The notes under the pieces were generated by a model. That model was not told where the DNA came from. It saw only the letters and a list, made by a program, of their open reading frames with translations, and ran no database searches. The position numbers were made by a program, and so were the translations under genes. Of a stretch of 64,000 bases of DNA, positions 5,293-7,899 are shown in pieces; position 1 is the first letter of the stretch; the number at the start of each line of letters is the position of its first letter. Where the stretch lies: assembly GCF_900116175.1 (NCBI RefSeq), contig NZ_FPCH01000001.1, positions 1,056,501 through 1,120,500 on the forward strand. Direction: 5' to 3'. This DNA is from Hyphomicrobium facile (GTDB taxonomy: Bacteria > Pseudomonadota > Alphaproteobacteria > Rhizobiales > Hyphomicrobiaceae).

Positions 5293-6183
5293 ATGTTCAA
5301 AGGTTCAATTACGGCACTCATCACGCCATTTCGTAACGGGAAGGTGGACGAAGCCGCGTTTACGCGGTTCATCGATTGGCAGATCAGCGAGGGTACCCAC
5401 GGGATCGTGCCTGTCGGGACGACAGGCGAAAGCCCGACGCTCGATCACGATGAACATAAGCGCGTGATCGCGCTCGCCGTAGAGGCCGCGAAGAAGCGTA
5501 TTCCCGTGATTGCCGGTACGGGCTCGAACTCGACGGATGAGGCTGTCGAGCTTTCGCAGTATGCCGAGGAAGTTGGAGCGGACGGCGTGCTCATCGTTAC
5601 GCCCTACTACAACAAGCCGAGCCAGGAAGGCCTCTATCAGCACTTCAAGGCGATCAACGACGCTATCAATATACCGATCGTTATCTACAACATTCCGAGC
5701 CGGTCGGTCGTCGACATGTCGGTCGCAACCATGGCGCGTTGTTTCGAGTTGAAGAATGTCGTCGGCGTCAAGGATGCGACGGCGAACCTCGCGCGCCCGT
5801 CGCAGACGCGTGCTGCACTGGGAACCGAGTTTTGCCAGCTCTCGGGCGAAGACGCGACGGCGCTCGCCTTCATGGCGCATGGCGGTCATGGCTGCATTTC
5901 CGTGGCCTCGAACGTTGCGCCGCGGCTCTGCGCCGAGTTTCAAAATGCGTGCATGGCCGGAGACTTCAAGAAGGCGCTGGCGCTGCAGGATCGGCTGATG
6001 CCGCTGCATGAGGTTCTCTTCATCGAGACGAACCCGGCGCCCGTAAAGTATGCCGTTTCGCGGCTGGGCTTCGGTACTCCGGATATGCGCCTTCCCATGG
6101 TTCCTGTCTCCGAGGCGAGCCGCCGGGCGATAGACGCAGTTCTGCTGCGCCTCGATCTCCTCGACGCAAAAGCCGCCGAGTGA
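5293..6183 (+). CDS. dapA: 4-hydroxy-tetrahydrodipicolinate synthase
   Basis: Condenses pyruvate with L-aspartate-4-semialdehyde, the first committed step of lysine and meso-diaminopimelate synthesis, in the cytoplasm. The 296 residues match the usual family length and a complete TIM barrel. Visible landmarks are GTTGES (41-47), YYNKPSQ (105-111), YNIPSR (132-137, with catalytic Tyr132) and the Schiff-base Lys160 in VVGVKDAT. Located 23 bp upstream of smpB, so the two are likely co-transcribed; the same dapA-smpB order is common in Alphaproteobacteria. The ATG lies about 9 bases behind a weak AAGG-type ribosome binding site. Confidence 0.97.
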
Positions 6184-6206: not shown

Positions 6207-6680
6207 ATGGCTTCGAAACGGGACGACGGCACAACGCTGGTCGCCGAAAACCGCAAGGCGCGGCACGAGTATTTCATTACCGACAGCTGGGAAGCAGGCA
6301 TCGAGCTTCTCGGGTCGGAAGTGAAATCGCTTCGCCGCGGTCAGTCGAATATCGCGGAGAGCTATGCTTCGGTTGAGGACGGCGGCGTCTGGCTGATCAA
6401 CAGCTACATCGCGGAATATCCGGGAGCCGCGCTTTTTCCGCATGAGCCGCGCCGCAAACGGCGCCTTCTCATGCATGCGAGCGAGATCCACAAGATCGGT
6501 ATCGCGGTCGAGCGGAAAGGCATGACGCTCGTTCCGCTCGAACTTTATTTCAACGAGAAGGGCCGGGCGAAGGTCAAGATCGGTTTGGCCGAAGGCAAGA
6601 ACCACTCCGACAAGCGTCAGGATGCAGCCAAACGCGACTGGAACCGTCAGAAAGCACGTCTGATGCGAGAGAAGGGCTGA
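6207..6680 (+). CDS. smpB: SsrA-binding protein SmpB
   Basis: Binds tmRNA and delivers it to stalled ribosomes for trans-translation. The 157-residue protein has the SmpB core: NRKARHEY, GSEVKSLR, then SYA and the conserved HEPRR-x-R-x-LLMH segment. It has the basic C-terminal tail (KRQDAAKRDW) that enters the vacant mRNA channel. It lies directly downstream of dapA. I could not find the tmRNA gene itself in this window. Confidence 0.97.
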   Translation: MASKRDDGTTLVAENRKARHEYFITDSWEAGIELLGSEVKSLRRGQSNIAESYASVEDGGVWLINSYIAEYPGAALFPHEPRRKRRLLMHASEIHKIGIAVERKGMTLVPLELYFNEKGRAKVKIGLAEGKNHSDKRQDAAKRDWNRQKARLMREKG

Positions 6681-6713: not shown

Positions 6714-7256
6714 ATGTCAAATTTCCCAATTCCTGAGGACGACGGGGCCGCCAAACATCTGATCGCGGGGACGCGTCTTCCTGATGTCGCGCTCACCGCG
6801 ACACGAGGGGCGAGCGTCAATCTCGCCCGCTATCAGGAGCGAGCCGTCGTTTTCGTCTACCCGATGACGGGGACGCCGGGCGTCGCCAACCCGCCTGATT
6901 GGGACATCATTCCGGGAGCGCACGGATCGACGCCGGAGGCGGAAGGATTTCGCGACGCGCATGAGGAATTCGAGCTTCTCGGCTACGAGATCTTCGGGCT
7001 CAGCAGTCAATCGCCGGACAGCCAGCAGGCTTTCGCGATGCGCGCCGGTATCCCGTATCTTCTGCTCAGCGACGAGACGTTCGCGTTCGCCGATGCACTG
7101 AAGCTGCCGCGCTTCGAGACGGGTGGAGCGACGTATCTCAAACGATTGACGATGATTATCCGGAACGGCGTGATCTATCGCGTCATCTATCCGGTGACAG
7201 CGCCCGGGACGCATGCGCAGGATTTGCTGGCGTCTCTCAGGCCAGCTCGCGCCTGA
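6714..7256 (+). CDS. Peroxiredoxin-fold protein without any cysteine
   Basis: The 180-residue product has the AhpC/TSA thioredoxin-like layout: GTRLPDVAL near the N-terminus, VVFVYPMTGTPG at the active-site strand, FRD helix start, FGLSSQ, LLSDE and a C-terminal strand. Relatives with this YPMTG-x-PG insertion carry the peroxidatic Cys in a G-C-T-P-Q-x-C motif. Here the aligned segment reads GSTPEAEGF, and no Cys is present anywhere in the translation. The codon at the expected position is TCG (Ser). It therefore cannot use thiol peroxidase chemistry as known for the family. I chose the ATG at 6714; an in-frame GTG lies 15 bp upstream. It overlaps the convergent UDG gene by 20 bp. Confidence 0.85.
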   Translation: MSNFPIPEDDGAAKHLIAGTRLPDVALTATRGASVNLARYQERAVVFVYPMTGTPGVANPPDWDIIPGAHGSTPEAEGFRDAHEEFELLGYEIFGLSSQSPDSQQAFAMRAGIPYLLLSDETFAFADALKLPRFETGGATYLKRLTMIIRNGVIYRVIYPVTAPGTHAQDLLASLRPARA

Positions 7257-7899
7257 TCTCGGCAAAAACCGATCGGAACATCTCGGTCGTCAGACGGCGC
7301 GTATTGGTATTGTAGCGCGAGCAATGGAAGCTGTCGTAGAGGACGCGATCAGGGCTCAGCTCGTGGCGCGCTCCGTGGGCAAACGGGTGGAGCGTTTTTC
7401 GTTTCTCGAGCGTTGCCAGCGTTTGATCGTGGGCTATGCGGCCGAGGGCGAGGATAACCTTCAATTTCGGTAGATTCGCCAACCGAGCCTCGAAGAAGGG
7501 GCGGCAATTGGCTATTTCGCTCGGCTCCGGCTTGTTCAGGGGTGGCACGCAGCGCACGGCATTCGTTATCATGCAGTCGATAAGCTTCAGCCCGTCGTCG
7601 GGGCTGGCGCGGTACTCGCCTTTGGCGAAACCGAATTCGAGCAGCGTTTGATAGAGGAGATCGCCGGCGTAATCGCCGGTGAAGGGTCGTCCCGTGCGGT
7701 TGGCGCCGTTTCGTCCGGGCGCCAGGCCGACGATCAGCAGACGGGCTTGGGAGGTGCCAAAGGACGGCACCGCTCCGTTGAACCAATCAGGTTCCTGGTT
7801 CTCGTTTTCCTTGCGGTAGGCGACGAGCCGCGGGCAGCGCGTACACTTTGCGGGAGGCTCGGGACCAAAGACTATTTTGCCCATTGCCCCGGGTGCCAT
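7237..7899 (-). CDS. Type 5 uracil-DNA glycosylase (UdgB-like)
   Basis: Removes uracil and related deaminated bases from DNA to start base-excision repair. The 220-residue protein has the four Cys ligands of a [4Fe-4S] cluster: C19, C22, C117 and C132. Motif A is GLAPGRNGANRTG followed by PFTGD (about 58-76). The C-terminal motif HCSRYNTNTRRLT is the type 5 (UDGb) variant rather than HPSPLN of other families. A second ATG five codons in is also possible as the start. It lies 30 bp downstream of the NYN-domain gene on the same strand, so they may share a transcript. Confidence 0.9.
   Translation of the reverse strand: MAPGAMGKIVFGPEPPAKCTRCPRLVAYRKENENQEPDWFNGAVPSFGTSQARLLIVGLAPGRNGANRTGRPFTGDYAGDLLYQTLLEFGFAKGEYRASPDDGLKLIDCMITNAVRCVPPLNKPEPSEIANCRPFFEARLANLPKLKVILALGRIAHDQTLATLEKRKTLHPFAHGARHELSPDRVLYDSFHCSRYNTNTRRLTTEMFRSVFAEIRRELA

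Follow-up and report, generated by a model that had tools for sequence, protein, structure and literature searches.

A cysteine-free peroxiredoxin-fold protein encoded beside smpB in Hyphomicrobium facile belongs to a conserved clade with serine at the peroxidatic position

The window analyzed here is a stretch of 64,000 nucleotides of Hyphomicrobium facile (contig NZ_FPCH01000001.1, positions 1,056,501 to 1,120,500), and it contains on its plus strand an ORF at 6714..7256 (ATG at 6714, stop codon at 7254-7256) which encodes a protein of 180 residues with no cysteine, as the original prediction had stated. The motif at the peroxidatic position of this protein reads GAHGSTPEAEGFRD. Upstream on the same strand lie smpB (6207..6680; Pfam SmpB, 1.6e-54, and synteny) and, farther away, dapA (5293..6183; Pfam DHDPS), which recurs in related loci. 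On the minus strand, a convergent gene of the uracil-DNA glycosylase (UDG) superfamily (7237..7899; Pfam UDG) overlaps the 3' end of the ORF by 20 bases. We refer to the clade with Ser at the peroxidatic position (HGST), to which the window protein belongs, as copy B, and to its Cys-bearing relatives (GARGCT followed by a second Cys) as copy A.

By both domain and predicted fold, copy B is a member of the peroxiredoxin superfamily. Searched against Pfam at 1e-3, the window protein matched AhpC-TSA (7.9e-16) and Redoxin (4.1e-14), both over cut-off, and nothing else. An AlphaFold2 model built from a 12-row alignment (mean pLDDT 85.1, pTM 0.85) resembled PrxQ/BCP proteins and further PDB peroxiredoxins in a Foldseek comparison (best 2.7e-13), and in VIA, where rows within Z 1 count as tied, the top row of the leading group was the PrxQ C47S mutant 3ixr (Z 18.6, rmsd 2.4, 151 aligned). 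This mutant and a second one, 5io2 (C48S), share with copy B the kind of substitution and the fold, but they were made in the laboratory, whereas the Ser of copy B is natural and conserved. A copy A model reached a pLDDT of 87.8. In the copy B model, the active-site loop (residues 51-70) is of low confidence (block means of 57 and 58), which leaves the arrangement of His70, Ser72, and Arg144 unreadable.

The nearest solved structures by sequence are likewise PrxQ/BCP proteins. The PrxQ/BCP peroxiredoxins (PDB 2a4v, 5enu, 3ixr, 5iiz, and 9a4d) resemble copy B in fold over almost the full length and in an Arg column, and their Cys-x4-Cys pair has its counterpart at the matching place in the sister copy A. 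Copy B differs from them in lacking both of these Cys, in an insert of about 15 residues that precedes the peroxidatic position, in Ala at position -3 (found in copies A and B, versus Thr/Ser), and in scoring far under the cut-off of the PrxQ equivalog models (NF006960, 44 of 140 bits; NF053650, 41.6 of 260). The insert (residues 57-71; 6882..6926, plus strand) is common to copies A and B and is missing from the five ordinary PrxQ-like rows of the 12-row alignment.

We compared the catalytic positions across 166 distinct stretches (104 copy B, 57 copy A, and five PrxQ-like) kept of 223 by dropping duplicates; set aside beforehand were matches of fewer than 110 profile positions, among them one split copy B (L053, described below) and pieces at contig edges. 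The first motif sorting had placed 13 ORFs outside its pattern, and all were reclassified (11 read HGST, and the other two were a frame-shifted half and a fragment at a contig edge); hits of three genomes (G074, G078, and G092) were not in the fetched regions and stand outside the A/B sorting. At the peroxidatic position, Ser72 of the window protein (codon TCG, 6927..6929, plus strand), all 57 copy A sequences have Cys and all 104 copy B sequences have Ser. Two residues upstream, at His70 (codon CAC, 6921..6923, plus strand), copy A has Arg in 57/57 and copy B has His in 104/104. Of all reference columns, only these two are fixed to 90% or more for one residue in copy A and for another in copy B.

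In PrxQ/BCP proteins, the resolving Cys lies five residues after the peroxidatic Cys, and among the five PrxQ-like rows of the 12-row alignment, four have a Cys at this spacing. The corresponding position, Glu77 in the window (codon GAA, 6942..6944, plus strand), is Cys in 57/57 copy A sequences and in none of the 104 copy B sequences, which instead have Glu (79), Leu (13), Gln (7), Ile (2), Ala (1), Val (1), or Lys (1). By family (numbered f1, f22, and f31; f1 is Hyphomicrobium's own), Glu77 occurs in 62/70 copy B sequences of f1, 17/17 of f31, and 0/17 of f22, where the residue is Leu (12), Ile (2), Gln (2), or Lys (1); Glu77 is not general across copy B. Measured against the classical P-x3-(T/S)-x2-C motif of the superfamily (PMC5302317), copy B has Ser72 at position 0 (104/104), Ala69 at -3, and a variable residue at -7. 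Copy B appears to have kept the active-site Arg of peroxiredoxins, whose conservation PMC5302317 calls absolute: the column of Arg144 (codon at 7143..7145, plus strand) is invariant in the 12-row alignment, PrxQ-like rows included, and is Arg in 99% of copy B, an assignment made by alignment only.

The sister copy A (GARGCTPQSC) shares ∼44-53% identity with the window copy B, has the same insert, and often sits between smpB and the UDG gene; it differs in Arg70, Cys72, and Cys77 (57/57). It also has Ala at -3 rather than the Thr/Ser of the classical motif, and it lacks the canonical P-x3-T/S-x2-C spacing; copy A may itself be an unusual peroxiredoxin, and its peroxidase activity is putative. 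Several fusions were seen on the Cys-bearing side of the family. On a Microvirga plasmid (L205:2456-3310), a copy A relative reads GARGCTPQTL, in which the first Cys is kept and the second has become Leu, and it ends in a fused glutaredoxin domain, which may replace the resolving Cys; the fusion fits thiol chemistry for this side of the family. In a Streptomyces plasmid (L206:2087-3040) and in Catellatospora (L036:4551-5520), an N-terminal MerR DNA-binding domain precedes a GARGCT Redoxin domain with the second Cys, and these proteins are possibly redox-sensing regulators.

The absence of Cys from the whole protein, which the original prediction had stressed, is true of the window protein but not remarkable by itself. 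The seven window neighbors have 17 Cys in 2532 residues, a rate at which ∼30% of 180-residue proteins would be Cys-free (P about 0.30), and the SmpB next door also has none. Among the copy B matched stretches, 48/104 are Cys-free, and the others have scattered Cys (17/104 in the commonest column) with no conserved Cys column. We therefore set overall Cys absence aside as the key fact; it is the loss at both catalytic positions that is beyond chance. The codons at Ser72 are TCG (71), TCC (18), TCA (13), and TCT (2), with no AGY, the pattern that a single TGY-to-TCY change and long retention afterwards would leave, and because the codon is TCN in 104/104, selenocysteine or recoding can be set aside.

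Ser at this position is shared widely around the window genome. All 22 Hyphomicrobium genomes searched match at E ≤ 0.001, and 21 of them, the window's included, hold a full-length copy B, the 22nd being cut by a contig end. The other 20 full-length copies are 67-96% identical to that of the window, and the site reads HGST in 21/21. No close orthologue with Cys was found; Ser in 21/21 genus copies and in 104/104 distinct copy B sequences rules out a recent mutation or sequencing error. The loss of Cys is shared beyond the genus, as the copy B clade was found in three families of one order. In f1, 83/103 genomes match at 1e-10, and both copies are among the 60 regions read; in f31, 28/30 genomes match at 1e-25, with copy B and, in part, also an unlinked copy A in genus g55, copy A in g134, and copy B in g128; in f22, 19/60 sampled genomes match (17 copy B and two copy A). 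Across the class, where copy A is sporadic, 7/142 sampled genomes match at 1e-30, one of them the window genome through its copy B. Homologues also occur on plasmids: 72 records match at 1e-5, the top identity among the best 20 of the 72 is ∼46%, and all three homologue regions read have GARGCT. A phage origin was rejected, as copy B had no PHROG match at 0.01.

DNA-motif scans of sampled genomes looked for copy B outside the three families; their counts are lower bounds and do not prove absence elsewhere, since the pattern misses variants such as DAHGST. In the order, 37/397 genomes match, and 31 of the 37 read Ser as TCN (16 in f1, five in f22, and 10 in f31), the other six reading other codons. 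In the phylum, 9/398 match, with Ser in only the window genome and one further genome of f1 (G079). Read in frame by eye, the odd matches in G284, G451, and G138 (order scan) and G815 (phylum scan), together with an AGC-coded extra in the f1 genome G067, were not family-like; the remaining odd matches (G130, G283, G438, and others of the phylum scan) were judged by codon only. As a separate observation, copy B is split over two frames in one genome (L053; G023:C296:1900-2410; 76% complete), either a pseudogene or an assembly error.

Copy B is under purifying selection, according to the dN/dS comparison that the original prediction had called for. Pairwise dN/dS (Nei-Gojobori) was 0.05-0.18 for the 14 closest of 210 Hyphomicrobium copy B pairs and 0.15-0.26 for the 14 closest of 21 f31 pairs; in other f1 genera, six close pairs gave 0.05-0.21, and eight distant pairs, at large dS, gave 0.28-0.38. 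The low dN/dS in this frame also supports it as a coding frame. The copy A pairs listed gave 0.12-0.67, with larger distances and an actinobacterial row, so they are no clean control. Copy B combines a lost catalytic residue with purifying selection and in this works like a pseudoenzyme, as the original prediction had suggested.

The pattern of conservation places part of this constraint at the former active site. Averaged over positions 49-80, column entropy comes to 0.74 bits in copy B and 0.80 in copy A, against 1.76 and 1.41 bits over the other positions. Since the active-site segment of copy B is as conserved as that of copy A while the rest of copy B is more variable, the segment has not been abandoned, and such a pattern would not be expected of a site without a task. 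Among copy B columns with 95 or more letters, 13 show no variation at all: Pro23, Tyr49, Gly53, Gly56, Pro60, Trp63, His70, Gly71, Ser72, Thr73, Ser97, Ser119, and Asp120.

In a quick tree of the 166 rows (midpoint root), copies A and B lie apart (SH-aLRT 90 and 88), and the PrxQ-like rows fall outside. When the motif was masked in a random 82 of the 166 rows, copy A formed one clade (98), and the free quick search did not recover copy B as one side of a branch; with copy B constrained together, the log-likelihood was 8.1 higher, and the constrained tree was not rejected (p-AU 0.665). A single origin of copy B is consistent with these trees but not proven, and the Cys-bearing outgroup suggests that the change ran from Cys to Ser. 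In all 24 loci that hold both copies, copy A lies directly upstream of copy B on the same strand. The statement that the gene is next to smpB and not to a redox partner therefore holds for the window and fails for these related loci, where the neighbor is a Cys-bearing paralogue. In addition to a tandem A-B pair, one genome (G066) has another Cys-bearing copy A that is not linked to it (L083:2476-2952). The simplest history would be an A-B pair between smpB and the UDG gene followed by differential loss.

Together with these results, the chemistry of the family frames how copy B might function. Peroxiredoxin turnover needs the peroxidatic Cys, according to excerpts of PMC5302317 and PMC6466579, and no activity was detectable in a nematode peroxiredoxin that lacked both of its Cys, according to an excerpt of PMC6617597. 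It follows from this chemistry that copy B, as far as its residues tell, cannot run the peroxiredoxin thiol cycle. The explanation that we favor, with somewhat better than even confidence, is that copy B is an old paralogue, incapable of thiol peroxidase activity, whose pocket is still selected, probably for binding a non-redox ligand. Copy B would have arisen when a PrxQ-like family with the insert split long ago, as tree and synteny support; compared with copy A, it has Ser for the peroxidatic Cys, His for Arg70, and no resolving Cys. Judging by gene order and spacing, it is probably made together with DapA and SmpB from one operon. Residues Trp63, His70, Ser72, Thr73, Ser97, Asp120, and Arg144, which are fixed or nearly so, suggest that the pocket is still in use, although they could serve an interface instead. 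The hydroxyl of Ser72, with His70 and Arg144, would hold a small or peptide-borne ligand at the peroxide's place without redox chemistry, and non-redox recognition of such a ligand is the most likely use of the pocket. The nearest analogy is with glutathione transferases, some of which have Ser where others have Cys. The serine-type enzymes belong to a family with a thioredoxin fold and an active-site residue that varies between Tyr, Ser, and Cys, by an excerpt of PMC3091736; this is a working likeness and not membership, as copy B has no GST domain match in Pfam.

It is also possible, if unlikely, that copy B is a dead regulatory or structural partner which tunes copy A, or another peroxiredoxin, in a mixed complex. 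The invariable tandem order of the shared loci speaks for this explanation, as do the hetero-oligomers of eukaryotic Prx1-type proteins reported in an excerpt of PMC13038412, and the window genome, which has copy B without copy A, offers as candidate partners seven further AhpC-TSA matches that exceed the Pfam cut-off. However, copy B occurs without copy A in 17/21 full-length Hyphomicrobium genomes, and on the f1 copy B tree the locus switches between having and lacking copy A no fewer than 11 times (45 rows without and 25 with copy A, from hand-typed labels). Nor would a pure scaffold obviously need an invariant His and an invariant Ser at the catalytic position.

Those two invariant residues, both unlike their counterparts in copy A, are what a third explanation builds on, in which His70 would activate Ser72 as a nucleophile and copy B would be a hydrolase or transferase built on the fold of a peroxiredoxin. 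Prdx6 offers a precedent of a kind, as it carries a Ser-His-Asp lipase site, albeit on another side of the fold; the site is described as GxSxG with His and Asp (both points from excerpts of PMC6466579). We looked for GxSxG in the window copy B and it is absent, no third catalytic residue was identified, and the model geometry is unreadable at the site. We regard this explanation as quite doubtful, and give the same small credence to the idea that one ancient switch from Arg-Gly-Cys to His-Gly-Ser made a non-redox serine-enzyme site which has stayed unchanged since beside smpB.

The linkage to smpB raises a further explanation, that copy B acts with SmpB, in trans-translation or ribosome rescue, or with DapA. 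Synteny was counted over 104 copy B loci, a set equal in size to, and different from, the 104 distinct sequences. smpB lies upstream on the same strand at 99 of them, across the three families (21/21 in the genus, 45/50 elsewhere in f1, 16/16 in f31, and 17/17 in f22); of the five loci without it, the upstream sequence is shorter than 1300 bases in two and longer in three. Among the 76 B-only loci with smpB, the gap is 50 bases or less in 53, and the match ends overlap in two; gaps in this synteny count reach from -1 to 1004 and were measured from one match end to the next and not from stop codon to start codon. However, dapA and the UDG gene also belong to the neighborhood, so the linkage may be plain positional inheritance, and copy A occupies the same position at nine f31 loci where copy B is missing. 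We judge a joint function with SmpB or DapA to be very unlikely. 

The order of genes around copy B also varies in detail. Some of the larger gaps between smpB and copy B hold an inserted acetyltransferase-like gene; such a gene lies between smpB and copy A or B at L066:1969-2763 (Rv0428c_C plus GNAT by Pfam) and, by eye, at L067, L109, and L059. A gene for a DUF3775 protein lies between copy B and the UDG gene on the minus strand at L149:2035-2433 (Pfam), with similar frames by eye at L153, L078, L092, L103, and L070; the window has no room for it, as copy B and the UDG gene overlap there. Finally, that copy B is a decaying relic or an assembly error, as the loss of both catalytic Cys and the two-frame copy in the one incomplete genome might suggest, is next to impossible given Ser in every distinct copy B sequence and dN/dS well under 1.

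Peroxiredoxin-like domains without the classical Cys are already known, so copy B is not new in kind. The P-DUDES, by excerpts of PMC3091736, are peroxiredoxin-like domains that do not conserve the catalytic Cys, and 53 of the 145 analyzed there have another conserved Cys pair; set against them by description, copy B is unlike in having no conserved Cys column and, at 1e-3, only AhpC-TSA and Redoxin matches. Among the matches listed from the open-access literature, we found no clade in which His-Gly-Ser consistently replaces Arg-Gly-Cys. The resolving Cys loss, the Arg/His difference at position 70, the conserved smpB linkage, and the Cys-bearing tandem paralogue in relatives were all overlooked by the original prediction, whose central claim, that the catalytic Cys was lost with the rest conserved, stands, while the regulator or binding partner that it suggested is no more than a possibility.

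According to an excerpt of PMC5302317, the peroxidatic Cys is part of the definitive motif of the superfamily, and here a natural clade, at one chromosomal place and in three families, always has Ser in its stead. Copy B has the fold and the ancestry of a peroxiredoxin yet fails the defining motif, and it should not be classed among the peroxiredoxin enzymes; annotation based on its domain would mislead on its activity. With the A-B pair, one can examine what role is left to a peroxiredoxin pocket once its thiol chemistry is gone.
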